Shown here: positions 9,109 to 35,484 of the stretch, one piece after another
Numbering within the stretch: position 1 is the first letter of the stretch
Layout: each line of letters opens with the position of its first letter
Assembly: GCA_015066225.1 (NCBI GenBank)
Contig: SVOT01000012.1
Coordinates: 1 to 47,194 of the forward strand
From: Oscillospiraceae bacterium
GTDB lineage: Bacteria; Bacillota; Clostridia; Oscillospirales; Acutalibacteraceae
Direction of reading: 5' to 3'
DNA length: 47,194 nucleotides
Made by a program: the position numbers and the translations under genes
The notes under the pieces: model-generated
Seen by the model: only the letters and a program-made list of their open reading frames with translations
Told to the model about the DNA's origin: nothing
Database searches by the model: none

Positions 9109-9129
9109 TGGCCCGCCCAAAGGGATTCG
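9109..9129 (-). pseudogene. Detached tRNA-Arg 3' tail (half T arm, acceptor strand, CCA)
   Basis: Read on the minus strand this repeats the last 21 bases of tRNA-Arg(CCG): CGAATCCC of the T arm, the acceptor 3' strand and CCA. It is preceded not by a tRNA body but by hairpins TCGTGC-TCC-GCACGA and GTTTGC-TTC-GCAAAC. The GGGATTCG at 9122-9129 is an inverted repeat of CGAATCCC at 9225-9232. Confidence 0.85.
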
Positions 9130-9183
9130 TGCTCCGCACGAGTTCGTTTGCTTCGCAAACCGTCGCATTTTATGTCCCTCGCA

Positions 9184-9245
9184 TCTCCGCCAAGGCGAAC
9201 CGATGCGAGATGGACTACGGGGTTCGAATCCCACCGCAACTAAAA
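9184..9245 (+). repeat. 62-bp direct repeat, right copy
   Basis: The right partner of 8428-8489. An outer TCGCATC/GATGCGA stem (from 9179) encloses GCC-AA-GGC. The T-arm-like end runs straight into the tRNA-Arg terminator, so this bidirectional terminator closes both the plus-strand T-arm-like tail and the minus-strand tRNA. Confidence 0.9.
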
Positions 9246-9280
9246 CAGAACACCAACCGCAAGGGTTGGTGTTCTGTTTT
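9242..9280 (-). terminator. Terminator of tRNA-Arg
   Basis: A 17-bp stem from AAAACAGAACACCAACC (9242-9258) and its complement (9264-9280) begins immediately at the encoded CCA. A T-rich end on each strand makes it bidirectional. Confidence 0.8.
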
Positions 9281-9357
9281 TGGCCCGCCCAAAGGGATTC
9301 GAACCCCCGTTCTTCAGAATCGGAATCTGCTGCGTTATCCAACTGCGCCATGGACGG
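9281..9357 (-). tRNA. tRNA-Arg(CCG)
   Basis: A 77-nt cloverleaf: acceptor CCGTCCA with TGGGCGG (one G-U pair), D arm with AGTTGGATAA, anticodon loop TTCCGAT (anticodon CCG), T loop TTCGAAT, discriminator G and encoded CCA. It decodes CGG. Its last 21 bases are repeated at 9109-9129. Confidence 0.9.
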
Positions 9358-9425
9358 AAATATGTTATTTTCACAATAATTAATTATAACTATTTTTACT
9401 CAAATTTTCAATAGTTTATTTTAAC

Positions 9426-9454
9426 TTGAAAAGGCGTGTTATTAGTGTTATAAC
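9426..9454 (+). promoter_or_regulatory. Promoter of the CE15-like esterase gene
   Basis: TTGAAA (9426-9431), a 17-base spacer and TATAAC (9449-9454), 21 bases before the ATG at 9476, leaving a very short leader that holds AAAGGAG. Confidence 0.7.
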
Positions 9455-9475
9455 TTTAATAAAGGAGTTGAGATT

Positions 9476-10510
9476 ATGTTAAAAGAAATGCTCAGGGACA
9501 GAAACGTTCCCGAACTCAAATCAAGAGAAGAAATGCTCGAATTGGTTTACACCGAGCTTTTTGGATATATGCCACCAAAACCCGAAAGCATCACTTTCGA
9601 GGTTGAAGAAGCGGTCATCCCCAAATTTTGTGCCGGCAAAGCAGTTTGTAACAGAGTAACCGCTAACTGTGTTGTAAACGGCAAGGAATTTTCATTCCCC
9701 TTTCTTGCCACACTCCCAACAGACAACAAAAAGCACCCTTTTTTCATCCACGTAAATTTCAGACCCGATAACCCCGACAGATATATGCCCACAGAGGAGC
9801 TCATCGACAATGGCTTTGCGGTATTATCTTTATATTATGATGATATCACGAGTGACGATAATGATTTCACAAACGGCCTTTCAGGCATTTTGTACCCCGA
9901 CGGCAAAAGGGGCGCAACCGATTGCGGTAAAATTGCCATGTGGGCTTGGGGTGCTCAAAGAGTTCTCGACTATGCATACACTATCCCCCAAAGCCTTGAC
10001 CTCGAATGTGCAACAGTCTGCGGTCATTCAAGGCTTGGCAAAACCGCGCTTTTGGCGGGTGCAACTGACGAACGATTTGCGTTCTCATATTCAAACGACT
10101 CGGGCTGTAGTGGTGCGGCTATTGCAAGAGGTACCGCGGAGGGTGGCGAAAGGGTTGCAGATATTTGCCGCAACTTCCCCTTCTGGTTCTGCGAAAATTA
10201 TAAAAAATATTGCAACAATGAGCAAAAAATGCCCTTTGACCAGCACTATCTTGTGGCATCAATTGCACCGAGAAAAGTGCTTATAGGCAGCGCCGCACTT
10301 GATAAATGGGCAGACCCGCTTTCAGAAATGCTTTGTTGCGTTGCTTCAAGCGACGCATTCAACAACGGCTTTAAATACAAAGACAGACCCCCACAGGTTG
10401 ACGATAAATTTTTCGATGGTGACATCGGCTACCATATGAGAGATGGTCTTCACTATTTCAGCCGTCTTGATTGGTTGAGGTTGATTGAATTTATAAATCT
10501 GCACAGGTGA
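9476..10510 (+). CDS. CE15-like alpha/beta-hydrolase (glucuronoyl esterase-type or acetyl xylan esterase)
   Basis: 344 residues. The nucleophile elbow GHSRLGKTALLAG puts Ser at 185. It is followed by SNDSGCSGAA, FPFWF and LPFDQH-like (MPFDQHYLVASIAPRKVL) blocks typical of bacterial carbohydrate esterase family 15, with the catalytic His in GYHMRDGLHYF near 320-326. CE15 enzymes cleave glucuronoyl esters between xylan and lignin; related proteins deacetylate sugars. No signal peptide is visible, so it probably acts on imported oligosaccharides. AAAGGAG precedes the ATG and a good promoter lies upstream. The next gene begins four bases after the stop. Confidence 0.75.
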   Translation: MLKEMLRDRNVPELKSREEMLELVYTELFGYMPPKPESITFEVEEAVIPKFCAGKAVCNRVTANCVVNGKEFSFPFLATLPTDNKKHPFFIHVNFRPDNPDRYMPTEELIDNGFAVLSLYYDDITSDDNDFTNGLSGILYPDGKRGATDCGKIAMWAWGAQRVLDYAYTIPQSLDLECATVCGHSRLGKTALLAGATDERFAFSYSNDSGCSGAAIARGTAEGGERVADICRNFPFWFCENYKKYCNNEQKMPFDQHYLVASIAPRKVLIGSAALDKWADPLSEMLCCVASSDAFNNGFKYKDRPPQVDDKFFDGDIGYHMRDGLHYFSRLDWLRLIEFINLHR

Positions 10511-10514
10511 GAAA

Positions 10515-11051
10515 ATGGCAAATAAATATAAAAGAAAACCAGAACCATTAAACAGATGGGTTGCTTTGGTAATGGCTTTAATCTCAATTTTTATGGGTAC
10601 GGTATTTTCATCCACATTGCTTCCAAATCAATCTATATCCAAAGAAGAAGCAACTCGATTAACTTGCACCTACAAAGAATTTACAGGTCATAAAAAACTC
10701 AAAGGCGGATTTACTGAAATCAAGCTGCTTTTTTATGATAGTTCGGCACAATATATCGATTCTTCTTGCATTACTGACGAGATTTTTAAAACCATTGAAG
10801 AGACTGCACCAGGAACTAAATTCAATATGTTAGTAAATCCCAATAATGATTATATTGTTGAATTAGTTGTAAATGATGTGGTTATACTTGATTTTAAAAC
10901 TGCACAAAAATCCTTAGAAATTGATGGTGTTGGATTTTTTATTTTTGGCATTGTTATGTATGTTTTTGCAATTTTCTTCATTGCTCAGGCTGTACTTGAT
11001 TTTAGAAAGAAAATTAAGAGAACGAAATTCAAAAAATCACAGAAAAATTAA
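10515..11051 (+). CDS. Two-TM membrane protein of unknown function (DUF3592-like)
   Basis: 178 residues. Hydrophobic segments at about 14-36 and 136-163 flank an extracytoplasmic domain of about 100 residues with PGTKFNMLVNPNNDYIVELVV, which resembles the G-x-x-v-x-v-x-y-x-P turn of DUF3592-type proteins. The C-terminus is a short lysine-rich tail. GGTGAG overlapping the preceding stop serves as ribosome site, so it is probably translated together with the esterase gene. No function is assigned. Confidence 0.65.
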   Translation: MANKYKRKPEPLNRWVALVMALISIFMGTVFSSTLLPNQSISKEEATRLTCTYKEFTGHKKLKGGFTEIKLLFYDSSAQYIDSSCITDEIFKTIEETAPGTKFNMLVNPNNDYIVELVVNDVVILDFKTAQKSLEIDGVGFFIFGIVMYVFAIFFIAQAVLDFRKKIKRTKFKKSQKN

Positions 11052-11582: not shown

Positions 11583-11615
11583 CAGCTCCCCTTGCGAAAG
11601 CAAGAGGAGTTTGTT
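11583..11615 (-). terminator. Terminator of the GH2 gene
   Basis: CAGCTCCCCTTGC pairs with GCAAGAGGAGTTTG around GAAA (G-U pairs allowed). On the minus strand it is followed by TTTTTT. It lies directly beyond the GH2 stop at 11618. Confidence 0.7.
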
Positions 11616-11617
11616 TT

Positions 11618-13861: not shown

Positions 13862-13935
13862 AATTTTCTCCTAAAATAAGTATTCAAAATAATTCTTTAC
13901 GGTTTTATTTATTTTATTCGTATATAATTGCCAAA

Positions 13936-18144: not shown

Positions 18145-18231
18145 GCCGCTGTGGCGGAATAGGCAGACGCAAGGGACTTAAAATCCCTCGGTGGCAACAC
18201 CGTACCGGTTCAAGTCCGGTCAGCGGCACCA
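18145..18231 (+). tRNA. tRNA-Leu(TAA)
   Basis: An 87-nt type II tRNA: acceptor GCCGCTG with CAGCGGC, anticodon loop CTTAAAA (anticodon TAA), long variable arm GGTGGCAACACC, T arm CCGGTTCAAGTCCGG, discriminator A and encoded CCA. It decodes UUA and UUG. The last 22 bases are repeated at 18363-18384 and again about 10 kb away at 28169-28190. Confidence 0.95.
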
Positions 18232-18237
18232 AAAAGG

Positions 18238-18269
18238 GAATCTACACTTTTGTGTGGATTCTCTTTTTT
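18238..18269 (+). terminator. Terminator of tRNA-Leu, copy 1
   Basis: GAATCTACAC and GTGTGGATTC form a 10-bp stem (one G-U pair) around TTTT, followed by CTCTTTTTT. Near-identical copies are at 18391, 28044 and 28197. Confidence 0.85.
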
Positions 18270-18430
18270 ATATTGTATGAAAAAGCAGGACTTGAACCGC
18301 CTCGCCGAAGGCGAACATAATCGGGCGTTCGCAAGGCACTTGCGAATGATGGGCAGAGCCCATCAAGTCCGGTCAGCGGCACCAAAAAGGGAATCTACAC
18401 TTTTGTGTGGATTCTCTTTTTTATTTCCAC
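18270..18430 (+). repeat. tRNA-Leu tail repeat: antisense T arm, hairpin cluster, detached tail, terminator
   Basis: After the first terminator comes an antisense T arm (GGACTTG at 18288-18294). Three perfect hairpins with 3-nt loops follow: TCGCC-GAA-GGCGA (18302-18314), TTCGCAAG-GCA-CTTGCGAA (18328-18346) and ATGGGC-AGA-GCCCAT (18349-18363). Then the last 22 bases of tRNA-Leu with CCA (18363-18384) and a second terminator (18391-18414). The outer GGACTTG and CAAGTCC (18364-18370) are inverted repeats. Open frames here are spurious. Confidence 0.9.
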
Positions 18431-18443
18431 CCCTAAAGGGACC

Positions 18444-18477
18444 AAGAAAAAGTGGTGTCGGTTTTCACCGACACCAC
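18444..18477 (-). terminator. Terminator of the HEPN-containing operon
   Basis: GTGGTGTCGGT pairs perfectly (11 bp) with ACCGACACCAC around a 4-base loop (18452-18477). On the minus strand it is followed by TTTTTCTT. It lies 85 bases beyond the last stop of the operon. Confidence 0.8.
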
Positions 18478-18561
18478 AGAAAGTAATTATAAAGTTTTTA
18501 ATTCATCGTAAACATTATTTTATAAGATACATGGTTGTTCGTTGCAATGAAAATATTTGCC

Positions 18562-19293
18562 TCAAATCAAGCCATCCGTACTCAGTTTTTCCTTAATTTG
18601 CTGCAAAAATGGTTGCATCCTTCTATAAGCTATTTTGGAAAGAGTTAAGTGGTAGTCTATCTCCTTTTTTAACTCAGCATGCAAATGTATAGCGTTACGT
18701 ACTTCATAAATTCTAATTAATTCTGAACAAAAGATCGGCATATCAGGTGATATTTTTATCTCTGGCAAAATATCAGCAGTTGAAATACTTTGTTGAGGAA
18801 TATCTTTTAATATTCCAAGCTGAAAGGCTGCAACGCACTTTTCATCAAATCTGATTTTTGTAATATCCCTCTTTTGCGTAGTTGCGAAATACGGTATGAT
18901 ATTTTTTCCATCGTGAGATAACAAACTATTTATCTTTTCTGATTGCTTTGTGGGAATAGAAAAGGGTTTGGTGACATTCTGAGTAAGCATTTTTTGAACT
19001 ACAGGGTCATTTTTATAATATTCATCAAATAATACATAATGAATAGTTGCTTCATAAATAGATGCATACATTAATACTTGCATTTTAACCTCAGCAAGTT
19101 TTAATTCTTCTTCGGCAGATATTCCCTCAAAAAACTTGTACACAAATCGTGCATTTTTAAACTCTGCTATTAATCTATTTTTCAGTGTATTATCTTTTAT
19201 AAAATCAAATGCATCCTCATACCATTCATCATTCGGTAAGTCACGAGTGCAATATGTTATGATACTATCCTTAAGTTCTTTTTCAAACGGCAT
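18562..19293 (-). CDS. HEPN-like helical protein, third gene of an unrecognised operon
   Basis: 243 residues, predicted all-helical. Two features suggest a HEPN domain: the helix ASIYEATIHYVLFDEYY, typical of the first HEPN helix pair, and EVRNAIHLH near residue 205, an R-N-x4-H form of the R-x4-6-H catalytic motif, preceding another long helix. HEPN proteins are often metal-independent RNases in toxin-antitoxin, abortive infection and CRISPR contexts; some lack activity. AGGAG precedes the ATG at 19293. It lies 72 bases after the middle gene. The sequence is markedly more AT-rich than neighbouring metabolic genes, consistent with transfer. The HEPN call is by eye and could be wrong. Confidence 0.55.
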   Translation of the reverse strand: MPFEKELKDSIITYCTRDLPNDEWYEDAFDFIKDNTLKNRLIAEFKNARFVYKFFEGISAEEELKLAEVKMQVLMYASIYEATIHYVLFDEYYKNDPVVQKMLTQNVTKPFSIPTKQSEKINSLLSHDGKNIIPYFATTQKRDITKIRFDEKCVAAFQLGILKDIPQQSISTADILPEIKISPDMPIFCSELIRIYEVRNAIHLHAELKKEIDYHLTLSKIAYRRMQPFLQQIKEKLSTDGLI

Positions 19294-19365
19294 TTTTTCA
19301 CTCCTAAAAATTTTTAATACTAAATCATTCCATCTCTCATATAAACAATTTTAAGTATGCTTGTA

Positions 19366-20451
19366 TCATTTTATAAAATTGTAAAATTTTTCTAATTCCT
19401 CAGTGACAAGTTGCTTAATAGAAAACTTGGTAAAATTAGTGTAATTTATTCCTTGTGTTTCAAAAGCGCCTAATAACTTTGAATTAAAGTCATATTCATT
19501 AATTTTATCAACATATTCTTTTGTATTTAAAACATTCAGTCTTTGCTTATCAGTAAGATTATACAAAACAAATGCAATGCTCATTTTATACAACATTATT
19601 TCAATAAATTGGTTTTCACTAAGGTTTTGTGCTATGAGTGTTACATATCGTAAGGCCAATGGATACCTAATGTAAGGATAACATTTGTATGCCATACATG
19701 TAACTATGATATCAACAGCTTGCTGAATATAACCATAAACTAGCATCAAAAACTTATTGGCATCAGAACTTGAACTATCAATAAGTTTTTCATTTTCCCA
19801 AACAGCCTTTTGAAATCTTTCTTTAAAATCTTCTGATTCTGTATCTGTTTCAGAAAACGTAATAATTTTATGAATATCTTTACGGGCATATTTCATAATG
19901 TCGTCTATGCTATTACATTTGTGAAAGTATTCTTCAAAGTTATTGATACCATTAAAAAGCCCCAAAAATATTTTTTCTCCTAAGTCTAATATTTCTTCAT
20001 GACTTTCAGTTTGACTTAATATTCTTAATGGTAATATGGTTATGCTGTTATTACAATTTTCTATTATTTTAACATTGTCTTCAGCCGTTTTTATTATTTG
20101 TTCATACAAGGGTTTTGATATTTTTTCTTCCGGCATCTTAGCACAAATTCTTGAATATGCACATAAAGGATCATCAAGAATATGTAAATCACCAATTAAC
20201 AAAAAGGGAAGATGCTCTCCATCATCATAATCCATAAATGTCGAGGCAGTAAAAGCATAGGAATCATTGCCGGAAAAATAAGAATTTAAATACAGTCGTA
20301 CAATATCCACCCTTCTATGCCAAAAAATATTAATTTCATCTAATGCTTGATGAGAATATCCTGATTTTAAAATAGGCAATAGTGTGCACAATAACTCTTT
20401 ATACTCTGACTGTATATTAATTATCTGTTTCTGCAATAGGTTCAAGCTCAA
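19366..20451 (-). CDS. Unrecognised helical protein, middle gene of the HEPN-containing operon
   Basis: 361 residues, rich in Leu, Ile, Asn and Lys, predicted helical throughout, with no signal peptide, membrane segment or recognisable motif. The start is the TTG at 20451, supported by GAGGTG seven bases upstream inside the last codons of the preceding gene. No ATG occurs in this frame near the beginning. The gene therefore overlaps its upstream neighbour by 35 bases in another frame, which indicates strict co-translation and a shared function. I do not recognise the family. Confidence 0.7.
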   Translation of the reverse strand: MSLNLLQKQIINIQSEYKELLCTLLPILKSGYSHQALDEINIFWHRRVDIVRLYLNSYFSGNDSYAFTASTFMDYDDGEHLPFLLIGDLHILDDPLCAYSRICAKMPEEKISKPLYEQIIKTAEDNVKIIENCNNSITILPLRILSQTESHEEILDLGEKIFLGLFNGINNFEEYFHKCNSIDDIMKYARKDIHKIITFSETDTESEDFKERFQKAVWENEKLIDSSSSDANKFLMLVYGYIQQAVDIIVTCMAYKCYPYIRYPLALRYVTLIAQNLSENQFIEIMLYKMSIAFVLYNLTDKQRLNVLNTKEYVDKINEYDFNSKLLGAFETQGINYTNFTKFSIKQLVTEELEKFYNFIK

Positions 20452-21901
20452 AATTCATCACCTCATTTAACAATTGTTGTGGGATGTCATACAATTCATT
20501 AAGAAAAGCTATTGTTTTGTTCATTACCATAATACAATCTGGTAAAACAGATTTTAAAATTATTTCATCATCAATATCGGGAATGCAGTGATATTGATGA
20601 GCGGGATTGTTACATTTTAACATCGTAGATTCTCGAATTGCACCCCATAATCCATGTTCAAAAGATGAATCGTAATCATAATATAAACCATAAAGTATTT
20701 TTTCATCAACTTTTTCAGCTTTTACTCTTATGGCATCTTTATTAAAGTAATTTGTATCAATGTTAATAAACTGCTCTTCTTTAAATTCATTAACCAACAT
20801 TTCAATATAATTTGAATCAAAATGAGGCTCACCGGTTATATCATTTTCACGATGTTTACTTAATATCAATTTATAAGCACCAAGCCCATATAGCTGATAG
20901 TCTTGCCATATATTATCACAGGAACTTTCGTTTACAATTAAATATTTCAACATAATATAGTTTTCAATTAAGCTTCGAATACAATTTCTTCCAGAGATGT
21001 TGTTAAACAAATTGCACACATAAGCTTCTTTAAATCGTTTGTACGAGTATGTGGCAATACCTAATATTACCTTCATTTTAGCATCAATTGGTGATGTGGA
21101 GGTATAGAGTTGCGATAAATATTGAAAAATTTCATACAAATTCTCCAAGTACAAATCAATTTTTCTATTCTCTAAAGGAAAATTAACGCTATAAAGTGAA
21201 CATTCTGTCATCTCGCTTACGCACCTCCAAAAAGCACTTATATAAACTTCGTTTGGTTCTTCCAATTGTAATATTGACATTTCCATAGAACGTACTGTAG
21301 GCCGTACCATACGCATTTCTACAGAATCGTGTGATAGTCGTGGATATGAGCAAATAATATCTATTTGTTCTTTTTGTAACACCATTTTTCCTGACAAGAG
21401 ATAGAAATACAATGCTACAAAACGAATATCTGTAGATTCATAAGACTGATGCCCCATAATATCTTGCATAACTTGGGTTATTGCATCGCATCTTTCTTGA
21501 ATACTTAATCCTTTAATATGAAAATATTTGTTAAACGTTGGTTGATTGCTTACTGAAAAAATCACAGTAAGTGGAGCTAATGGTTCTTTTCCTATAATGC
21601 CAATAATAAATGAATAAAAAGCCACCTGTGTATCGATATCCAATTTAAAAATATCAGATAATCTGAGTGTATGTAGGTTAGGTGCCAAGACATGAAGCTG
21701 CATTACAATTTCATTTAACTTTTGTAGCCCTTCTTCGCGGCCATAAAATTTCAAAATCAAACCAACCCAAATATATTCAGGCATTCTGCCGTATGTCCAA
21801 GATTTTTTATCACTCAATTCATGCATAAGTGGGATAGAGTTAATAGGTGTAACAAACACACCTTTTTTAAATACATGACTTGATAATTTATCTGGTTGCA
21901 T
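20417..21901 (-). CDS. Large protein with DUF5677-like C-terminal part, first gene of the HEPN-containing operon
   Basis: 494 residues. The N-terminal third has NSIPLMHELSDKKSW and MPEYIWVGLILKFYGREEGLQKL, a block I associate with DUF5677-linked proteins. Around 300-350 GRNCIRSLIENYIMLKYLI, and near 420 YDYDSSFEHGLWG, resemble the R-x-L-x-E and S-x-x-x-H elements of DUF5677, a family without known biochemistry. No transmembrane segment is evident. GGAAGTGA precedes the ATG at 21901. The leader upstream has a promoter and an attenuator-like structure. AT-rich base use matches the two downstream genes. Confidence 0.6.
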   Translation of the reverse strand: MQPDKLSSHVFKKGVFVTPINSIPLMHELSDKKSWTYGRMPEYIWVGLILKFYGREEGLQKLNEIVMQLHVLAPNLHTLRLSDIFKLDIDTQVAFYSFIIGIIGKEPLAPLTVIFSVSNQPTFNKYFHIKGLSIQERCDAITQVMQDIMGHQSYESTDIRFVALYFYLLSGKMVLQKEQIDIICSYPRLSHDSVEMRMVRPTVRSMEMSILQLEEPNEVYISAFWRCVSEMTECSLYSVNFPLENRKIDLYLENLYEIFQYLSQLYTSTSPIDAKMKVILGIATYSYKRFKEAYVCNLFNNISGRNCIRSLIENYIMLKYLIVNESSCDNIWQDYQLYGLGAYKLILSKHRENDITGEPHFDSNYIEMLVNEFKEEQFINIDTNYFNKDAIRVKAEKVDEKILYGLYYDYDSSFEHGLWGAIRESTMLKCNNPAHQYHCIPDIDDEIILKSVLPDCIMVMNKTIAFLNELYDIPQQLLNEVMNFELEPIAETDN

Positions 21902-21936
21902 ACTATCACTTCCTTACAGCTTTTATAATAGAATAC

Positions 21937-22045
21937 AAAAAAACTCTCCACCACAAGGCAGAGAGATTAAACTTTTTTCTGCCAAAAACAACATCGCTTT
22001 GACAGCGTTGTATTAAATTATACTCTTATTTGACAAATTAATCAA
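21937..22045 (-). promoter_or_regulatory. Promoter and attenuator-like leader of the HEPN-containing operon
   Basis: On the minus strand TTGATT (22045-22040), a 17-base spacer and TATAAT (22022-22017) form a good promoter. The roughly 110-base leader holds a first weak hairpin (CAAC...GTTG), then GGCAGA (21983-21978), then a terminator: CTCTCTGCC (21965-21957), loop TTGT, GGTGGAGAG (21952-21944) and seven U (21943-21937). TCTGCC of the terminator arm can alternatively pair with GGCAGA, making an antiterminator. The two U-G pairs in the terminator stem would be A-C mismatches on the plus strand, so it is built for the minus strand. Confidence 0.65.
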
Positions 22046-22187
22046 TAGCACATACTAAACTGCCTTTAAAACATACAAAAACGCAGAGGTAGTTAAAGAT
22101 TACGGAATGTTATAATAGCAAAAAACCATGTTAGTGTAAGGTCAATACAATATCAGGGTGCTATTTATTACTCATCCGTCACAAATG

Positions 22188-22216
22188 TTGATTTTGCTAA
22201 TGTTTTTATATATAAT
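22188..22216 (+). promoter_or_regulatory. Promoter of the two-component system
   Basis: TTGATT (22188-22193), a 17-base spacer and TATAAT (22211-22216), 30 bases before the response regulator ATG. Confidence 0.75.
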
Positions 22217-22246
22217 CATTACATACCCACCGAAAAGAGTGATATT

Positions 22247-22918
22247 ATGATTAAAATACTTATCATAGAAGATGATGTTAGCATTGTCAAAAATTTAAGT
22301 GAGCTTCTTCGTCAGGAAGGCTTTGATACAGACAGTGCTCTAAGCTGTAAAGAAGCAGAGACTAAAATTGAAACTGCACAGTTCGACCTTGTTCTATTAG
22401 ATGTGCTTCTGCCTGACGGAAACGGATTTTCTCTTTGTAACAGAATCAAAAGTGTGACCGATTGTCCTGTAATTTTCCTTACTGCTTCAGCGGATGAGTT
22501 CAGTGTTGTTACGGGCCTTGATATAGGTGCTGATGATTATATTGAAAAGCCTTACCGTCCGAGAGAGCTTATATCCCGCATTAAATCTGTTCTTCGAAGA
22601 ACAGGCAAAAGTCAGAGTATGCTCACTCTTGGCAATGTAAGTGTTGATATGGATAAAGGAATTGTCACTAAAAACGGCAAAGATGTTTTTCTTTCAGCTT
22701 TGGAGTACAGACTCTTTCTTGTTTTTCTTAATAATCCCGGTGTTACTCTTACAAGGAATAAACTGCTTTCTGAAATATGGGATATTGCAGGTGACTTTGT
22801 CAACGACAATACTCTTACAGTATATATAAAAAGGCTCAGAGAAAAAGTGGAAGATGATATACAAAATCCCAAAATCATTCTTACCGTAAGAGGTTTGGGA
22901 TATAAATTAGGTGAATAA
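22247..22918 (+). CDS. OmpR-family response regulator
   Basis: 223 residues. The receiver domain (1-118) has the acidic pair ED at 8-10, phospho-acceptor Asp52 in LLDVLLPDG, the conserved Thr/Ser in FLTAS and Lys in IEKPYRP. The winged-helix output domain (about 127-222) ends RGLGYKLGE. It is followed by a short histidine kinase, an ABC ATPase and an FtsX-type permease, the usual set of antimicrobial-peptide sensing and export modules, so it probably controls those transporter genes. The start has only a weak ribosome site (AAGAGTG). Confidence 0.92.
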   Translation: MIKILIIEDDVSIVKNLSELLRQEGFDTDSALSCKEAETKIETAQFDLVLLDVLLPDGNGFSLCNRIKSVTDCPVIFLTASADEFSVVTGLDIGADDYIEKPYRPRELISRIKSVLRRTGKSQSMLTLGNVSVDMDKGIVTKNGKDVFLSALEYRLFLVFLNNPGVTLTRNKLLSEIWDIAGDFVNDNTLTVYIKRLREKVEDDIQNPKIILTVRGLGYKLGE

Positions 22919-22919
22919 A

Positions 22920-23924
22920 ATGAAACTTTCAAATAATCCCGAAATAAGAAAATTTTTAGCAGTAACAGTGATACCCTCACTGTTACTATGCTTTATTACA
23001 GCTTTTTATTCTAAATTTACTGCTGTATGTATTTTGATTTTAAGTACATTTTTGATATGCAGCTTTCTTGCGTTTACAAAGAAAAGATATAACAGAATTA
23101 ATAATCTAGGTGAAAGTATAGATAAGATTCTTCACGGAAACGACACAATAAACATTAAAGGCTTTGATGAGGGCGAACTTTCAATTTTAGAAAGTGATGT
23201 GCAAAAAATGCTTGTACGCCTTCGTGACCAAAAGGATATTTTAGAAAAGAAAAGAACTTTTCTTGCAGACTCAATTGCTGACATTTCTCATCAGTTAAGA
23301 ACTCCGCTTACAAGTATTAATCTTATTCTGTCTCTTATTGAGTCGCCTGACATATCAGAGGAAAGAAGAGAAGAACTTTTAAGAGAGCTTTCGTCACTTA
23401 TTACCAAAACGGAATACCTTGTTTCGGTTCTTCTTAAAATTTCAAAGCTCGATGCAGGAACCGTACAGTTCGAAAAGAAACCGACAGACCTCACATCTCT
23501 CATTAAAAAATCTGCCGAGCCTCTGCTCGTTCCGATGGATATTAAAAATCAGAAGCTTATTATAAACACGGATAATGTTTGTCTTGATTGTGACTCCTCT
23601 TGGTGCATTGAAGCCTTCGGAAACATATTGAAAAACTGTGCTGAGCATACACCTGGAAACGGAGAGATAACGGTAACTGCTGAGGACACGCCCATTTTCA
23701 CAGAGATTATCATTACTGACACAGGCAGCGGCATTGGGGAAGAGGACTTGCCTCATATCTTTGACCGCTTTTATAAAGGTAAAAACTCATCAAAAGAAAG
23801 CTTTGGTGTAGGCCTTAATCTTGCCAAAATGATTATTTCGGGTCACAACGGAACAATAAAAGCTGAAAACGGTCAGTTCTGCGGTGCAAAATTTACAATA
23901 AGATTTTACAAGCAGGTTGTGTGA
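22920..23924 (+). CDS. Small-sensor (intramembrane-sensing type) histidine kinase
   Basis: 334 residues. Two membrane helices (about 13-31 and 33-52) with almost no external loop are followed by a short linker, the HisKA dimerisation region with His124 in DISHQLRTPLTS, and the ATPase domain (ILKNCAEH N-box, DTGSGIG, GVGLNLAKM). The lack of a sensor domain is characteristic of BceS-like kinases that sense through a partner ABC transporter. The ATG at 22920 is preferred to the overlapping GTG at 22911 because AGGTGA lies five bases upstream. It begins one base after the regulator's stop. Confidence 0.9.
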   Translation: MKLSNNPEIRKFLAVTVIPSLLLCFITAFYSKFTAVCILILSTFLICSFLAFTKKRYNRINNLGESIDKILHGNDTINIKGFDEGELSILESDVQKMLVRLRDQKDILEKKRTFLADSIADISHQLRTPLTSINLILSLIESPDISEERREELLRELSSLITKTEYLVSVLLKISKLDAGTVQFEKKPTDLTSLIKKSAEPLLVPMDIKNQKLIINTDNVCLDCDSSWCIEAFGNILKNCAEHTPGNGEITVTAEDTPIFTEIIITDTGSGIGEEDLPHIFDRFYKGKNSSKESFGVGLNLAKMIISGHNGTIKAENGQFCGAKFTIRFYKQVV

Positions 23925-23929
23925 CGTTT

Positions 23930-23958
23930 TTGTAATAATAGAGTCACCGAAGTGTAAT
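23930..23958 (+). promoter_or_regulatory. Possible promoter of the ABC-FtsX genes
   Basis: TTGTAA (23930-23935), a 17-base gap and TGTAAT (23953-23958) in the 84-base gap after the kinase gene. It could be the response regulator's target, but no clear repeat was recognised. Confidence 0.4.
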
Positions 23959-24008
23959 TTTTGATTGGTAAAATGAAGCTGCAACAAAAAGAAAAGGAGC
24001 AATTCAAT

Positions 24009-24692
24009 ATGGATATTTTAAAAATTGAAAACCTTTCAAAAATTTACGGTGAGGGTGAAAATCAGGTTAAAGCTCTCGATAATGTAAGTTTCAGCGTACC
24101 TAAAGGTCAGTTTGTGGCTATCATCGGTCCGTCAGGCTCGGGAAAAAGTACACTTCTGCATATTCTCGGCGGTGTTGATAAGCCCACAAGTGGCAAGGTT
24201 TACCTTGACGGGCAGGATGTTTACGCACAAAACGAAGACCAACTCGCCATATTCCGTCGCAGGCAGGTAGGTCTTATTTATCAGTTTTATAACCTCATCC
24301 CTGTTCTCAATGTAACGGAAAACATTTCTTTGCCCGTGCTTATGGACGGCAAAAAGGTGGACAAAAATTACCTTCGTGAGCTTATTGACCTTCTTTCTCT
24401 TACCGGAAGAGAAAAGCATCTTCCCAATGAGCTTTCAGGCGGTCAGCAACAGAGAGTTTCTATCGGCAGAGCACTTATCAACAATCCTGCCGTTATGCTT
24501 GCCGACGAGCCGACGGGTAACCTTGACTCGAAAAACAGCCACGAAATCGTTGAACTTCTTAAACTCTCTAACAAAAAATACGGTCAGACACTTATCGTTA
24601 TCACTCACGATGATTCGATTGCTTTGCAGGCAGACAGAATTATCACCATAAACGACGGTAAAATTGCGAGTGACAGACTTCTCGTTAAGTGA
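24009..24692 (+). CDS. ABC transporter ATP-binding protein (MacB/BceA type)
   Basis: 227 residues with Walker A (GPSGSGKST), Q-loop YQFYNLIPVLNV, signature LSGGQQQRVSIGRAL, Walker B (VMLADEPTGNLD) and switch His in VITHD. This is the LolD/MacB/BceA class that works with FtsX-type permeases by mechanotransmission. AAAGGAG lies eight bases before the ATG; an upstream in-frame ATG is not needed. The permease begins 10 bases after the stop. Adjacent two-component genes suggest a role in antimicrobial-peptide resistance. Confidence 0.92.
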   Translation: MDILKIENLSKIYGEGENQVKALDNVSFSVPKGQFVAIIGPSGSGKSTLLHILGGVDKPTSGKVYLDGQDVYAQNEDQLAIFRRRQVGLIYQFYNLIPVLNVTENISLPVLMDGKKVDKNYLRELIDLLSLTGREKHLPNELSGGQQQRVSIGRALINNPAVMLADEPTGNLDSKNSHEIVELLKLSNKKYGQTLIVITHDDSIALQADRIITINDGKIASDRLLVK

Positions 24693-24702
24693 GGTGACCG
24701 CA

Positions 24703-27519
24703 ATGAATATCTTTAAACAGTTTACCAAACGCTCACTTAAAGAGAACAAAACAAGAACTCTTGTTACAATCATCGGCATTATCCTTTCCGTCGCAATGTT
24801 TACTGCCACAATAGAGGCTTTTGTAACCGTTCAGGATTACCTTATAAACTATGCCGAAATGTATAACGGCAAATATCATGTCGGCTTTTATGATGTTGAA
24901 TATGATGATATTTCAAAAATATCCGAGGATGAACGGGTTGAAAAATATACTTATGTTCAGGAAATAGGCTATGCCGAAATCGGTTCGTCAAATGAATACA
25001 AGCCGTATCTGTATATCGCAGGTATTCCGACCGATTTTACGGATATAATGCCGATACATCTTACCGAAGGCAGATTGCCGCAGAACAGTAACGAAATCGT
25101 AGTTTCCGACCATCTTTATTCAAACGGCGGAGTACATCTTAAGCTCGGACAGAAAATCACTCTTGCAGTCGGACAAAGACAATGGTCTGAGCTTGTGAAC
25201 ATTACAGATGAAGAATATAAAAAACTTGACGGTGACTCCTGGGCAAAGCTTACTCAGGAATATCCGTTAAGAAAAACCGAAGGCGAAGAAGCAACAGAAT
25301 ATCTCGTTAATACAAAAGAGAAAACATATACTGTTGTAGGCTTTTGTGTAAGACCTGAACAAACCACTATTGAACCCATTTCGGCACCCGGCTATACAGC
25401 TTACACAATAAACGAAAAGGGAAATACAAGACTTTCTTCTGTTTACACCGTAATTTCTCAACCCTCAGATTACAGCCGATTTAACCTTGATATCGTTAAA
25501 AAGATTGAAGTTAATTCCTGCATAAACTATGACCTGCTTATGTATACCTTCAACAGCTTTGATTCGGCATTTCCCTTCCTTGTTATCGGCTTGCTTTCTC
25601 TTCTTATAGGACTCATTGTTTTCGGCTCGGTTTCGCTTATTTATAATTCGTTTTCAATTTCCGTCAGTGAGAGGACAAAGCAGTTCGGTATTCTTAAAAG
25701 TATAGGTGCCACTAAAAAGCAGATAAGAAAATCTGTTCTTTACGAAGCATCGGTGCTTTGCAGTATCGGCATACCGATAGGTCTCATCTCAGGTTGCTTG
25801 GGCATTGCTATAACATTCTACTTCTTAAGTGATTCAATCGCAACCTTCCTTGCAGAGCTTACAGACCTTAAAATGCGGTTTGTGTTCTCGCCCGTGGCAA
25901 TCATTGCCGCAAGCGTAATAAGCTTTGTGACGGTAATCATCTCAGCATATATTCCTGCGAAAAAGGCAATAAAAATTAACCCCATTGAATCTGTCAGACA
26001 GTCAAATGAGATTAAGGTCAACCGTCGAAGTGTTAAGGTATCTCCGCTTACCGAGAAGCTTTTCGGCTTTGAAGCAACACTGTCGTCAAAGAATTTTAAA
26101 AGAAACAAAAAGAAATACCGTGCTACAGTTTTTTCACTTTTTGTTTCCGTTGTCCTGTTCATTTCCGCTTCTTCACTTTCGACGTATTTTACCGATATTG
26201 TTGCAGCCGAAAGTCAGGATATGAATTATGATGTTGCCGTAAACATTTTTAATTACGACGATGACTATAATCCTTTATATGAAACAGATGAATTCAGAAA
26301 CAAGTTGTATAACGGATTGAAATCCGTTAAAGGAATTGATGAGTTTACACTTACCGAAAAGATGGGCACAGAATATAACCTTGATAAAAAATATATTTCG
26401 GAAGAATACATTGATATGATGAACAAAGAGGTCGAAAGATATTCGGACGAAGTTGAAAGTCAGTATTACGGAATGTTCAAATATAACTTCATTGATGATG
26501 ACGCTTTCAGAAGACTTCTTAAAGCGGAAGGTCTCAGCGAAGAGGGATATTTTGACAAAGAAAACCCGAAAGCCCTTGTTTATGATATGGGCACCTATAT
26601 CTACCAGAATGACAACAAAGAAAAGGTTTATATAATACCCTTCCTTAACACGGACGATATTTCTTCAAACATTGAGATAACAAATATCCTTCCTCGTTTT
26701 ACAGAGAATGATGTGGACTACCATTATATAGGGGAAACAACGGTAAAAGACGGTGTAACATATTATGTTTATGATATCGGCCGTGACGAGGGCGAAGAAT
26801 TTGACGAGTCAACAAAGCGTTACCTGCCCGAAGAAAAGGCCGTACAGAACATTAAGATTTCAATCGGTGCGGTTATCGACGAAAAGCCGTATTTTGCAGA
26901 CCATAACACAAACCTTATTTACCCTGAATCTGTAAGAAAAGGCATAATGCTTGATGAATACAGCCAGACACACGCTTTTATTCTTTGCGAGGACCACAGC
27001 AAGGTTGCAAGTGATGTAAGCCGACTTGTCAGGGATATTGGTGGAGATTCAAATCATGTCAGTGTAGTAGATTATGCGGCGGAAATTGAAAGCATCCGAG
27101 CACTTGTAACAATTGCAAAGGTTCTTGCTTATGGCTTTATCGTTCTTATATCTATGATTGCCGCAGCAAATGTTTTTAACACAATCTCAACCAACATTTC
27201 TCTCAGAAGAAGAGAATTCGCAACACTCAAATCTGTGGGTCTTACAAGTAAGGGTATGAGAAAAATGATGACATTTGAATCTATCCTTTACGGAGTAAAA
27301 AGTCTTTTATTCTCACTTCCGGTTTCATTAGGAATGACATATCTAGTATATCTTGTAGCGTCAGATAGCGGTTATGAAATGGCATTCTATGTACCGTGGG
27401 ATAAATTCATTATAGCGATTGCAAGTGTATTTATAATTGTGGTGCTGAGTATGATATATTCAATCAAAAAAGTAAACAAAGAAAATACAGTTGAAACACT
27501 CCGAAACGAGAATATATAA
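24703..27519 (+). CDS. FtsX-type ABC transporter permease with two FtsX domains
   Basis: About 938 residues. The first membrane helix at about 20-42 is followed by an external domain of about 250 residues, three helices (about 290-420), a basic cytoplasmic linker, a second TM (RATVFSLFVSVVLFISAS), another large external domain rich in Asp, Glu and Tyr, and three final helices from about 800. This doubled FtsX arrangement is larger than BceB (about 650 residues, one large external domain). The ATG at 24703 follows GAGGTG overlapping the ATPase stop. It may both expel a peptide and signal to the kinase. Confidence 0.88.
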   Translation: MNIFKQFTKRSLKENKTRTLVTIIGIILSVAMFTATIEAFVTVQDYLINYAEMYNGKYHVGFYDVEYDDISKISEDERVEKYTYVQEIGYAEIGSSNEYKPYLYIAGIPTDFTDIMPIHLTEGRLPQNSNEIVVSDHLYSNGGVHLKLGQKITLAVGQRQWSELVNITDEEYKKLDGDSWAKLTQEYPLRKTEGEEATEYLVNTKEKTYTVVGFCVRPEQTTIEPISAPGYTAYTINEKGNTRLSSVYTVISQPSDYSRFNLDIVKKIEVNSCINYDLLMYTFNSFDSAFPFLVIGLLSLLIGLIVFGSVSLIYNSFSISVSERTKQFGILKSIGATKKQIRKSVLYEASVLCSIGIPIGLISGCLGIAITFYFLSDSIATFLAELTDLKMRFVFSPVAIIAASVISFVTVIISAYIPAKKAIKINPIESVRQSNEIKVNRRSVKVSPLTEKLFGFEATLSSKNFKRNKKKYRATVFSLFVSVVLFISASSLSTYFTDIVAAESQDMNYDVAVNIFNYDDDYNPLYETDEFRNKLYNGLKSVKGIDEFTLTEKMGTEYNLDKKYISEEYIDMMNKEVERYSDEVESQYYGMFKYNFIDDDAFRRLLKAEGLSEEGYFDKENPKALVYDMGTYIYQNDNKEKVYIIPFLNTDDISSNIEITNILPRFTENDVDYHYIGETTVKDGVTYYVYDIGRDEGEEFDESTKRYLPEEKAVQNIKISIGAVIDEKPYFADHNTNLIYPESVRKGIMLDEYSQTHAFILCEDHSKVASDVSRLVRDIGGDSNHVSVVDYAAEIESIRALVTIAKVLAYGFIVLISMIAAANVFNTISTNISLRRREFATLKSVGLTSKGMRKMMTFESILYGVKSLLFSLPVSLGMTYLVYLVASDSGYEMAFYVPWDKFIIAIASVFIIVVLSMIYSIKKVNKENTVETLRNENI

Positions 27520-27524
27520 AGTGA

Positions 27525-27552
27525 ACCCCACAGGCTGAAAAGTCTGCGGGGT
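27525..27552. terminator. Bidirectional terminator between the permease and tnpV
   Basis: ACCCC and GGGGT with an inner CAG/CTG segment close a hairpin between two converging genes, with ATTTAT on the plus side. Confidence 0.55.
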
Positions 27553-27560
27553 ATTTATCT

Positions 27561-27923
27561 TTATGTATAGATGAGTTCGTTACAAACTATTTCACTTGCT
27601 CTTTGTTGGATATTATTCATCTTCTGAATCCATTCCAATTGGTTGTCTTCTTTCATTTTTTCAGTAACACCTTCAGCTTCTTTCATCTGCGCGACAAGTG
27701 TATCAAGCATCTGTTGTGCCTGATTTTCAATCTCTGCACAGTGCTGATAAAGCTTACCTTGAGTAAGCAATGTGTTGAAAAACACCTTTTTATGCTTTTC
27801 AAGATAAGTTTTGTACATCATTCCCCATTTGCCAAGTCTGACACTTGCTTCTTCGAGTGGTAAGATGAGGTTAGGAATATTATAGTCGCCAACTCGTCTG
27901 TAAGTAATATAATTAGTTTTCAT
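27561..27923 (-). CDS. tnpV: TnpV-family transposon-encoded protein
   Basis: 120 residues. It starts MKTNYITYRRVGDYNIPNL and contains LGKWGMMYKTYLEKHKK, GKLYQHCAEIENQA and MNNIQQRASEIVCNELIY. This is the pattern of TnpV, a small protein carried by clostridial mobilisable and conjugative transposons and of unknown mechanism. The ATG at 27923 follows AAAGGA at seven bases. No integrase or resolvase accompanies it here, so it marks a remnant or a cargo island rather than a complete transposon. It lies just inside the right boundary repeat of the tRNA-Leu-flanked island. Confidence 0.8.
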   Translation of the reverse strand: MKTNYITYRRVGDYNIPNLILPLEEASVRLGKWGMMYKTYLEKHKKVFFNTLLTQGKLYQHCAEIENQAQQMLDTLVAQMKEAEGVTEKMKEDNQLEWIQKMNNIQQRASEIVCNELIYT

Positions 27924-28031
27924 AGTATTATCCTTTCTTTTCACTCTATTTAATCAAGGTGAGCAAAGTGAAGAATACTATGTTTGAAGCCGGTTTTACA
28001 TATATTTTGAGTAAATCCCTTATGAACACTC

Positions 28032-28267
28032 GCACCAAAAAGGGAATCTACGCTTTTGTGTGGATTCTCTTTTTCGTATTGTATGAAAAAGCAGGACTTG
28101 AACCGCCTCGCCGAAGGCGAACAAAATCGGGTGTTCGCAAGGCACTTGCGAATGATGGGCAGAGCCCATCAAGTCCGGTCAGCGGCACCAAAAAGGGAAT
28201 CTACACTTTTGTGTGGATTCTCTTTTTTTGTATTGTATGAAAAAGCAGGACTTGAACCGCCTCGCCT
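28032..28267 (+). repeat. Orphan tRNA-Leu tail repeats, right boundary of the island
   Basis: No tRNA gene is present, yet the segment opens with GCACCA and the tRNA-Leu terminator (28044-28067). It continues with the same antisense T arm (28094-28100), the three-hairpin cluster, a 22-base tRNA-Leu tail (28169-28190), a second terminator (28197-28220) and the start of a third insert that stops at about 28267. Over about 195 bases it differs from 18226-18425 at only a handful of positions. AAATCCCTT and AACACT just before 28032 may be remains of a tRNA-Leu body. Confidence 0.9.
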
Positions 28268-32038: not shown

Positions 32039-32042
32039 ATCG

Positions 32043-33353: not shown

Positions 33354-33357
33354 AGTA

Positions 33358-34164: not shown

Positions 34165-34178
34165 ATATTACTCAGAAC

Positions 34179-34640
34179 TTAATTTTTATCTTCAATAAGA
34201 AGCTTCTTTACCTCGTTCATAAAGGTGTTGATATCTTTAAATGAACGGTAAACAGAAGCAAAGCGGACATAGGCAACCTCGTCAATATCCTTGAGCTTAT
34301 CCATAACAAGCTCGCCGATTTTTACAGAGGTAACCTCACGGTCAAGAGAATTCTGTATTTCTGCCTCAATTTCGTCAACAGCCCTTTCAACAACACTGAC
34401 GGAAACGGGACGTTTTTCACAAGCACGCATAATACCGCTGAAAAGCTTATCACGGTCAAAGGGCTGACGTGATTTATCACGCTTGACAACCATTATCGGC
34501 ACGCTTTCGATAATTTCATACGTTGTAAATCTTTTACCGCAACTGATACACTCTCTGCGGCGGCGGATACGTTCACCCTCGTCAGTGGGTCTTGAATCGA
34601 TAACCTTGCTTTCTTCAAAACTGCAAAAAGGACATTTCAT
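34179..34640 (-). CDS. nrdR: Transcriptional repressor NrdR
   Basis: 153 residues, the normal length. The zinc ribbon [18 protein letters not shown] and [17 protein letters not shown] is followed by an ATP-cone ([19 protein letters not shown] and onward). NrdR represses ribonucleotide reductase genes when dATP is high, binding AT-rich NrdR boxes. GGAGGTG precedes the ATG at 34640. A NrdR-box-like stretch in its own promoter suggests autoregulation. First gene of the nrdR-rlmA-GH29-DUF5662 unit. Confidence 0.95.
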
Positions 34641-34671
34641 TTTCGGCACCTCCGAATTTATATATGGTGAA

Positions 34672-34700
34672 ATTATACCAAATATAGTGCTGTAATTCAA
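34672..34700 (-). promoter_or_regulatory. Promoter of the nrdR operon with a NrdR-box-like element
   Basis: On the minus strand TTGAAT (34700-34695), a 17-base spacer and TATAAT (34677-34672). Inside the spacer GCACTATATTTGGT agrees partly with the NrdR box consensus, consistent with but not proof of autorepression. Confidence 0.65.
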
Positions 34701-34779
34701 GTGTTTTCGCAACATTTCGTGGTTGCATTTACCATTGAAACACAATGTAAATCAATGTATTATTGTGTTGGTGACGAAA

Positions 34780-35019
34780 ATGAACAAAACACTAAAAACA
34801 TTTCTTGAATTTTACGGCACATTATGCCCAAAAACACAATTTTTTATTAAAACATCCGTAATCACTTTTCTGACGTTATTGGTTACGGTAATAGTTATAC
34901 CCTTCACCCAAAACTATTATCTTCTTTTGCTTTTTGAAGACGTTCTTCTGGCATCACGAAGCCTTTTAGCCTGTGGCATCACTCTGGCAATATTTTTTGA
35001 GTATTTGGGAAAAAAATAA
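34780..35019 (+). CDS. Small two-TM membrane protein, unknown
   Basis: 79 residues with two hydrophobic stretches (about 22-42 and 47-72), a lysine-rich end and no recognised motif. The ATG at 34780 has only GGTGA five bases upstream. Its stop is 12 bases before the first tRNA-Lys tail repeat. It is transcribed away from nrdR. A real but unassigned gene is likely; family not recognised. Confidence 0.5.
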   Translation: MNKTLKTFLEFYGTLCPKTQFFIKTSVITFLTLLVTVIVIPFTQNYYLLLLFEDVLLASRSLLACGITLAIFFEYLGKK

Positions 35020-35030
35020 AGCAAGTCAAA

Positions 35031-35408
35031 GACCTGCTTCGCCGAGTGGGGTTCGAATCCCCTATTCAAAGACAAAAAAGAAGAAGCTACACCAATGTGT
35101 AACTTCTTCTTTGGTGAGTTATCGGGGATTCGAAGGGCTCTGCCCTTCGCACTCGCTACGCTCGTTGACCCGATTATGTTCGGCTTCGCCGAGTGGGGTT
35201 AGAATCCCCGAATTCAACATTCAAAAAAAGAAGAAGCTACACCAATGTGTAACTTCTTCTTTGGTGAGTTATCGGGGATTCGAAGGGCTCTGCCCTTCGC
35301 ACTCGCTACGCTCGTTGACCCGATTGTGTTCGGCTTCGCCGAGTGGGGTTCGAATCCCCTATTCAAAGACAAAAAAGAAGAAGCTACACCAATGTGTAAC
35401 TTCTTCTT
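35031..35408 (-). repeat. Tandem tRNA-Lys tail/terminator repeats (about 150-bp units)
   Basis: In the tRNA-Lys direction the order is: tRNA, terminator (35408-35375), antisense T arm, hairpins TCGGC-TTC-GCCGA and CGAAGGGC-TCT-GCCCTTCG, detached 22-base tRNA-Lys tail (35283-35262), terminator (35261-35228), the same insert again, second detached tail (35133-35112), terminator (35111-35078), and a partial third insert. Copies are spaced 150 and 147 bases. GGGGATTCGAA (35274-35284) and TTCGAATCCCC (35349-35359) are a perfect 11-bp inverted repeat. Open frames here are artefacts. Confidence 0.92.
35375..35408 (-). terminator. Terminator of tRNA-Lys
   Basis: AAGAAGAAG-c-TACAC pairs with GTGTA-a-CTTCTTCTT (one mismatch) around CAAT, immediately after the encoded CCA; on the minus strand CTTTTTTG follows. 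Copies are at 35228 and 35078. Confidence 0.8.
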
Positions 35409-35484
35409 TGGTGAGTTATCGGGGATTCGAACCCCGGACACCCTGCTTAAAAGGCAGGTGCTCTGCCTACTGAGCTAATAACTC
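35409..35484 (-). tRNA. tRNA-Lys(TTT)
   Basis: A 76-nt cloverleaf: acceptor GAGTTAT with ATAACTC, D arm with AGCTCAGTAGGCAGAGC, anticodon loop CTTTTAA (anticodon TTT), T arm CCGGGGTTCGAATCCCCG-like, discriminator A and encoded CCA. It decodes AAA and AAG. It lies 24 bases downstream of secG on the same strand and may share its transcript. Confidence 0.95.

Follow-up and report, generated by a model that had tools for sequence, protein, structure and literature searches.

The window analyzed here, a stretch of 47,194 nucleotides, is contig 15 of a 2.04-Mb draft genome (18 contigs; label G000) of an Oscillospiraceae bacterium (GenBank assembly GCA_015066225.1, contig SVOT01000012.1). It contains four tRNA genes, Ala(cgc), Arg(ccg), Leu(taa) and Lys(ttt), and a repeat architecture is found on the same strand 3' of each of Arg(ccg), Leu(taa) and Lys(ttt). 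The repeated units are non-coding, and the T loop of the host tRNA is their border. Most species of one genus of uncultured gut bacteria carry these short repeat cassettes at many tRNA genes, and two species at the transfer-messenger RNA (tmRNA) gene; the cassettes are tuned to their respective host genes and bring no integrase with them. We interpret the units as non-autonomous, att-like repeat cassettes that sit in the T loops of tRNA and tmRNA genes, are inherited per tRNA, are multiplied by recombination and sometimes flank islands, an interpretation that we consider about equally likely to be right or wrong. The closest relatives of the proteins in the genome collection are those of Oscillospiraceae and Clostridia metagenome-assembled genomes, many of them from ruminant guts.

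Read along the tRNA strand, a unit of about 150 bp consists of a tail (the tRNA 3' end, from the T loop at around base 56 to CCA), a terminator, an AT-rich spacer, an antisense copy of the T loop with some 3 bp of its stem (T'), a hairpin module and then the next tail. A complete 3' end stands at the start of every unit, and any insertion or duplication at the T loop therefore restores the tRNA, intact and followed by its terminator. We collected 101 candidate units, two of which are unrelated hairpins (L034 and L082, minus strand) and 27 of which lack an upstream tRNA or tmRNA gene, often at a contig end. Stem pairs were scored in 83 complete units, T' in 72 and tails in 64 of 74, leaving out ten units, mostly truncated, that have no tail copy within one mismatch. 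The tail copy is 21–23 nt long and starts at base 54–56 in 57 of the 64 scored units, the other seven being 18–20 nt. T' matches its own tRNA at a mean of 14.65 of 17 bases, whereas the best match to other isoacceptors averages 11.2 of 17 (1224 comparisons, 2.7% of which reach the own-tRNA mean), and the central nine bases of T' match the host tRNA in full in 67 of the 72 units. An earlier note on this DNA had claimed that the ends of the inserts match the local tRNA and had proposed the T loop as an att-type site; the match to the local tRNA holds, the start of the direct copy supports the T loop as the border, and the arrays look like att-type duplications, with gene stretches lying between some copies. 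The contiguous match most commonly spans bases 63 to 51 or 50; T' is thereby centered on the break point and covers bases 53–51, which are missing from the tail copy. In the Arg(acg) and Leu(gag) units of G000, T' still fits the tRNA although the tail copy has lost loop bases. All 83 complete units read one way, and we therefore rejected the idea that T' and its direct counterpart t are inversion sites.

In the window, the arrangement is clearest behind tRNA-Leu(taa) (18145–18231, plus strand). The first terminator (18231–18268) is followed by T' (18288–18299), a hairpin module termed module A (18301–18363; stem H1, the conserved linker GAACATAATCGGG, and stems H2 and H3), a tail copy from base 56 to CCA (18364–18384) and a second terminator identical to the first (18385–18423), all on the plus strand. 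A gene stretch of 9.6 kb (18424–28031, no strand assigned) divides this array from a distal one (28032–28266, plus strand), which comprises a tail remnant, a terminator, T' (28094–28105), module A, a tail (28170–28190), a terminator, a second T' (28248–28259) and a truncated module. The second Leu copy that the earlier note placed at 28032 is thus present, but 9.6 kb from the first and with genes in between. Behind tRNA-Lys(ttt) (35409–35484, minus strand) three units follow one another on the minus strand: unit 1 (35262–35408) with a terminator, T' (35345–35359), module A and a tail copy (35262–35284); unit 2 (35112–35261) with a copy of the terminator, T' (35195–35209), module A and a tail copy (35112–35134); and a truncated unit 3 (35036–35111) with a copy of the terminator, T' (35048–35062) and the start of module A. 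tRNA-Arg(ccg) (9281–9357, minus strand) is followed on its strand by T' (9219–9232), a different hairpin module, module B (9130–9218; from reading of the sequence, with a by-eye likeness to the Glu(ttc) and second Pro(ggg) inserts), a tail copy made of half the T loop, the acceptor strand and CCA (9109–9129), and a terminator-like hairpin (9079–9108) unlike the first terminator in sequence. No such architecture stands behind tRNA-Ala(cgc) (5018–5093), as had been claimed. The claim of one architecture at Arg, Leu and Lys likewise holds in all its parts except that the second terminator at Arg has a different stem and is not a copy of the first. The hairpin cluster is a single shared module only at Leu and Lys, Arg carrying a different and longer one.

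Module A, common to Leu, Lys and most other hosts, is built from H1 with a GAA loop, the linker GAACAYAATCGGG, which is strongly conserved across units, a variable H2, and H3, whose outer base pairs include bases 56 and 57 of the host tRNA. H1 is Watson-Crick in all 83 units at four of its five pairs and in 82 at the remaining one, with one inner pair alternating between G-C and C-G. The module base opposite tRNA base 57 (H3 pair 8) forms a Watson-Crick pair in 69 units, G.T in 11 and A.C in three. It is mostly T opposite a tRNA A and C opposite G; the 11 exceptions are T with G and are spread over about seven host genes, as judged from the tails. The H3 loop is purine-N-A in 82 of the 83 units, and the H2 loop is C(purine-N-A)G in 54 of 84, a further 19 of the 84 not being parsed. 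PMC4686876 describes GNA and GNNA loops as DNA mini-hairpins of unusual stability. When all hairpins of the window were counted, GNA made up 5 of 31 triloops, with no general excess, so this likeness is only a hint, and for the modules only. The stretch from T' to the tail at Leu folds with a z-score of −3.0 as RNA and −3.6 as DNA (−4.4 for the other strand), and the Lys stretches with −3.4 and −3.0 as DNA; the fold of Arg module B is not significant (−1.6 as RNA, −1.5 as DNA). A 286-nt Leu transcript that includes the tRNA and the terminators reaches z = −11.1.

Other modules lie between similar borders at Arg, Glu, Asn and Pro(tgg). By eye, module B is found at Arg(ccg), where it is longer than module A, at Glu(ttc) and in the second Pro(ggg) unit, and longer modules of other kinds are found at Gln(ctg) and in the second units of Pro(ggg) and Ser(gct) in G020, and at Ser(gct) and Ala(cgc) in G010. 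The longer modules at Asn(gtt) and Pro(tgg) of G000 have a break point close to the variable loop and not at the T loop, again by eye. Modules also alternate within single arrays, in the order A, B, A, A at Pro(ggg) of G000 and as module A followed by a different module in G020. The occurrence of unlike modules between alike borders indicates that the border structure is more general than the module. In Rfam searches, only tRNA was matched in the window, and no unit was matched at gathering score there or in seven further loci, where the families found were tRNA, tmRNA, rRNA and Gut-1, none of them over a unit.

For a genome-wide count, we took the surroundings of 43 tRNA matches in G000, of which ARAGORN recovers 42 genes, and scored as a tail copy the tRNA's own last 20 bases including CCA, with at most two mismatches, up to 1.5 kb downstream. 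Own tail copies (one to four complete copies) stand behind 15 of the 42 genes. An antisense T arm also stands behind 15 of 42, and the two sets are not identical: Asn(gtt) and Pro(tgg) have a tail copy and no detected T', and two Gln genes have T' and no tail copy. As a control, the tails of other tRNAs were found in 35 of 1484 tRNA/tail pairs, a number that includes real neighboring tRNA genes. The tail copies behind G000 tRNAs exceed chance. The same scan, which the earlier note had proposed, gave a tail copy behind 10 of 44 genes and an antisense T arm behind 12 of 44 in G020 (45 Rfam matches; some stretches cut by contig ends), and behind 2 and 1, respectively, of the 40 genes taken in G010 (45 Rfam matches; some stretches likewise cut). 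Restriction of the repeats to the loci first seen, which that note had named as the outcome that would speak against it, was not found; the units occur genome- and genus-wide.

Spacing within the arrays of G000 is close to constant. The first tail copy lies 127–137 bases past the tRNA in 11 of 15 cases (152, 164, 219 and 235 bases in the others), and successive tails are 147, 149, 150, 151 or 155 bp apart, with a 178-bp unit (module B) and a 421-bp interval at Tyr as exceptions. Successive units show a likeness of 0.86–0.99 within the Lys, Arg(acg), Ser(gct), Met and Ser(cga) arrays, and of 0.69, 0.77 and 0.99 in the Pro(ggg) array, where the modules differ. With up to one mismatch, the core of module A is found at 24 places in G000, compared with four for a reversed-pattern control. 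Twenty of these places are in tRNA arrays, one is a chance match in a gene and three are distal copies, namely 2.4 kb past the Met array, in the Leu copy at 28 kb and about 380 bp past Gln(ttg).

The exact 14-base core of module A is present in 18 of 22 genomes of the same genus, or 17 after removal of G019, whose match lies in a 353-amino-acid open frame. Among 126 other genomes of the family or order, five have single matches, none with the rest of the module; four of these are in open frames of at least 298 amino acids and one is in a 123-amino-acid frame. A strict border pattern, which would miss longer modules, was matched in 10 of the 22 genus genomes and in one of the 126 others (a match unlike a unit); in a phylum sample it was matched in G000 and 7 of 397 others, the latter mostly antisense tRNA bodies by eye. 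No unit was thus seen outside the genus in the 126 family and order genomes or the 397-genome phylum sample, and we rejected a spread beyond the genus, as the outside matches do not look like units. A search word from another long module, ACAAGGAGNATCNCGAAGCG, was found only in G000 and G010 of 148 genomes. We also rejected a phage origin of module A: a 16-base core occurs in 20 viral-contig stretches, none with the rest of the module by eye, collections of phage and plasmid records not having been searched. The hairpin GAAAACAGTCC..GGACTGTTTTC of the longer T-loop modules does occur in eight viral-contig stretches (L287–L294), with four copies in one, and no tRNA was found in these eight stretches.

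Genus-wide, the hosts comprise 18 tRNA kinds, labeled by the nearest upstream gene, and tmRNA in G008 and G013. The presence of units at tmRNA suggests that the T arm matters rather than decoding. Downstream of the tmRNA unit in both G008 and G013 we also observed Gut-1 RNA (RF01706; L156 1257–1331; L149 999–1073 and 905–979), which its 2010 description (PMC2864571) gives as "human gut only". Gut-1 RNA is, like the units, a non-coding element of uncultured gut bacteria, but it is a separate family.

Descent was examined in 58 units that lie behind a tRNA and whose module is complete, after removal of the last 12 bases (H3). Module identity is 0.828 at the same tRNA in different genomes (119 pairs), and at different tRNAs 0.781 between genomes (1349 pairs) and 0.780 within one genome (173 pairs). 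An effect of the tRNA as large as this was reached in one of 1000 label shuffles, and the effect of the genome is nil; homogenization of modules within genomes, which we had considered, was accordingly not seen. Because similarity follows the tRNA and not the genome, we conclude that one shared module has been fitted to each tRNA, rather than invented several times. The earlier note had written that the structure had "arisen or been adapted several times"; adaptation to each tRNA holds, but a repeated origin is not supported for the hairpins of Leu and Lys, which are among the 83 complete units that share a homologous module, so that most units form one family. Spacers are also recognizable across species at the same tRNA, for example at Leu(gag) in G005 and G008. 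From these comparisons, the modules are old lineages tied to each tRNA, whether they descended there or were passed only between genes for one and the same tRNA.

Presence of the units is patchy between species. Val(gac) has no unit in G000, a complete one in G008 and a truncated one in G013. Tail copies at Ala(cgc), Leu(caa) and Gln(ctg) are absent in G000 and present in G020, while those at Leu(taa), Lys, Ser(cga), Leu(cag) and Tyr are present in G000 and absent in G020. One locus of G012 (L082) is by eye a chimera, which carries the tail of another tRNA-Leu and a T' that turns from local to foreign sequence inside the loop.

The earlier note had also raised the possibility of minimal integrative elements. 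In form this is possible, but G000 contains only a Xer-like recombinase and no Y1 or IS110 transposase (other families were not searched). Its single PF00589 protein is encoded on contig 3, not on the contig of the window. The best NCBIfam match of this protein is XerC with 222 bits (cut-off 335), it falls below the curated XerC and XerD cut-offs, and it scores 83 bits against the integron integrase model (cut-off 265); we predict it to be a Xer-like tyrosine recombinase. PF00589 matches occur in 21 of the 22 genus genomes, with 1–10 each, and neither of the two in G008 lies on the contig of its Leu(gag) array. A search for Y1 transposase (PF01797), made in G000 only, gave no match. IS110 transposase (PF02371) was found in 2 of the 22 genus genomes and not in G000, and for this reason we rejected an IS110 bridge-RNA mechanism, which the two-sided T-arm match had suggested. 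No recombinase was found among the proteins scanned in the gene-bearing intervals, those of Leu(taa) and Met in G000 and that of Leu(gag) in G008.

The 3' ends of tRNA genes are classic doors for mobile DNA, where an integrase usually leaves one displaced fragment. Joining at the T loop leaves the tRNA intact, as in tRNA att sites, and we therefore read the units as att-like cassettes. They would arise and multiply through recombination or unequal replication between T-loop repeats, and near-identical units of about 150 bp would let homologous recombination grow and shrink arrays and move islands without an integrase of their own. As no dedicated integrase was seen, homologous recombination between copies is the simplest present-day engine. 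T' and the perfect hairpins may be kept exact by template-switch correction, by selection or by both, and the original inserting enzyme may have been lost from G000. This reading does not account for the first arrival of a module at a new tRNA with both ends fitted. Several points weigh against the att-like cassettes. To our knowledge an antisense T loop has no role in ordinary att sites. No candidate inserting enzyme was found in G000 among tyrosine recombinases, Y1 and IS110 (the genome-wide search did not extend to serine recombinases, DDE transposases or reverse transcriptases). Similarity that follows the tRNA without an effect of the genome fits old vertical inheritance or tRNA-specific transfer rather than recent mobility, and some neighboring units are dissimilar (0.35 at Tyr; 0.69 and 0.77 at Pro). 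The conserved linker and covarying stems are equally compatible with a functional RNA. No excision product or circle was seen, no search aimed at one having been made, and all genomes are drafts, with arrays often at contig ends. A bolder form of the att-like reading, in our estimation improbable, is a tRNA-based cassette platform, in which the units would be recombination sites, with an inverted T-loop core and single-stranded DNA hairpins, that stack gene cassettes including anti-phage systems, each specialized for its tRNA and served by a recombinase in trans, like an integron spread over the tRNA genes.

Among the alternatives, the units may be regulatory or decoy RNAs, made by read-through past the first terminator, in which T' would pair with the tRNA's own T arm while the 5' acceptor strand would be bound by the distal tail; the unit would thereby control maturation or act as a decoy of the tail. 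Both pairings, of T with T' and of the distal tail with the 5' acceptor strand, are present in the predicted RNA fold of the Leu transcript, the stems of the module are conserved with covariation and H1 is almost wholly Watson-Crick, the linker is strongly conserved, and T' stays complementary to the T arm even at Arg(acg) and Leu(gag) of G000, whose tail copies have lost loop bases. At H3 pair 8, G.U (11) is also more frequent than A.C (3), as would be expected if the RNA had the sense of the tRNA strand, although this excess may only mirror T as the older module base. Yet the terminators stand before the units, and promoter scans found one weak internal match in the Leu array (9/12, where shuffles average 0.9 sites per region) and no match within the units of the Lys array. 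The units are also patchy between related species, whose same tRNAs manage without them, quite unlike modules occupy the same place, the Leu module folds equally well from both DNA strands, and the purine-N-A loops of H3 and H2 belong to a class that includes the very stable GNA mini-hairpins of DNA described in PMC4686876. On balance we regard an RNA function as somewhat unlikely.

Template switching and slippage during replication might alone suffice, T' and the hairpins arising at stalled forks and the arrays by slippage, with nothing mobile. Template switching is described as making and maintaining perfect hairpins (PMC8794818), T' is a short reverse complement, centered on the T loop, of a site about 70 bp away, and one H1 pair occurs in both orientations, G-C and C-G, with a mismatch in only one of 83 cells. 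T' and the stems do have the form of reverse-complement copies of nearby sequence. Template-switch duplications, which the earlier note had listed, thus fit the perfect stems and the antisense piece, but do not explain one module at many tRNAs: dispersal is required to place the same module of about 60 nt behind 18 kinds of tRNA and the tmRNA in 17 genomes. A border at one position of the T loop in 57 of 64 units speaks against such an origin too, and exchange is suggested by the chimera L082 and by the genes that lie between units; we think this explanation unlikely. Very unlikely, in our view, is that the units are remnants of ordinary integrase-type tRNA islands, each tail copy being the displaced attR of one of a succession of islands. 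The T-loop crossover and displaced 3' fragments are a signature of tRNA islands as described in PMC4383910, longer gene stretches lie between some copies, and relatives also have fragments that start further upstream in the tRNA. But there is no tyrosine integrase in the Leu(taa) interval of G000 or the Leu(gag) interval of G008, and the near-fixed spacing of 147–155 bp, the antisense T loop and the single module would not be expected of decayed islands of different origin.

We found no description of such units in the literature, most subscription journals being outside the coverage. The tandem repeats of 178 bp downstream of E. coli tyrT, associated with rtT RNA and each beginning with the last ~19 bases of the tRNA, are a known parallel. 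They occupy one locus, whereas here 15 of 42 tRNAs are involved, with a hairpin module in common and an inverted T loop that is fitted to the tRNA in question. REP and REPIN palindromes with RAYT, and integron attC sites, are likewise short non-coding hairpins, able to recombine or spread although they encode nothing themselves. In contrast to these, the units are found without Y1 (in G000) or an integrase reaching the integron cut-off, are fixed in position at T loops and have ends that fit the local tRNA. Islands in tRNA and tmRNA genes, as described for Islander (PMC4383910), have their crossover in the anticodon loop, the T loop or the junction of T and acceptor stems and leave a displaced fragment. 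They share with the units an intact tRNA followed by a same-strand displaced 3' fragment, a T-loop crossover and, in some intervals, accessory genes. The units differ in being ~150 bp long, non-coding and in tandem at near-fixed spacing, in their antisense T loop, in the same module at many tRNAs, and in the lack of a tyrosine integrase in the intervals. Template-switch hairpins as described in PMC8794818 have in common with the units perfect homogenized stems and a local reverse-complement copy, but leave the dispersal of the module and the duplication of tail and terminator unexplained. Such tRNA islands (PMC4383910; PMC9897764, on fragments of tRNA genes) and the tyrT repeats are the nearest precedents. 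As a separate observation, tRNA-Thr(cgt) of G018 (L152) and G002 (L081) is followed by displaced fragments from near the variable loop and then by a T-loop unit; the fragments of both genomes seem to have the same flanking island end.

Within 1.5 kb of the tRNAs of G000, the tail spacings of 147–178 bp and, once, 421 bp fall short of the minimum of 2 kb for an island; longer intervals were seen behind Leu(gag) in G008 and, in G000, behind Leu(taa) and Met. In the Leu(taa) interval, adjoining genes on the minus strand (19366–21901) give PADLOC matches to DitB (1.7e-99) and DitA (1.8e-194), a predicted anti-phage system; the DitA protein was found in one of the 22 genus genomes, G000 only. The rest of this interval encodes a response regulator, a histidine kinase, an ABC ATPase, an FtsX/MacB-type permease and a 243-amino-acid protein without a match, and at its distal end a transposon-encoded TnpV (PF14198, 1.8e-43; 27561–27944, minus strand). 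The two Leu(gag) units of G008 lie 5.8 kb apart and enclose genes for AIPR, GmrSD/HNH, an EcoRI-type methylase and AbiD (L319 1602–6526). GmrSD/HNH matches a PADLOC type II restriction endonuclease at 3.9e-126, the methylase a type II methylase at 4.6e-137 and AbiD its model at 1.1e-95, and the distal tail copy starts at the T loop. The 2.2-kb Met interval of G000 encodes a DUF4760 protein and an amidase. Two arrays, Leu(taa) of G000 and Leu(gag) of G008, thus enclose defence-like genes. If the units are landing pads, they would show how islands can move without an integrase of their own, and the turnover of defence genes could be clearly traced by them. Should they instead be RNAs, bacteria would have antisense elements specific to single tRNAs, a type not known to us from these organisms.

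Two minor features of the window deserve mention. Long open reading frames cross the tRNA genes and units on both strands (9055–9383 and 34973–35473); they are probably spurious and carry a risk of misannotation. Clusters of short perfect hairpins, of several families and with linkers such as CTTCATT/AATGAAG and TGAAAT, are found at 8900–9080 and behind other tRNA terminators, with or without T-loop units.

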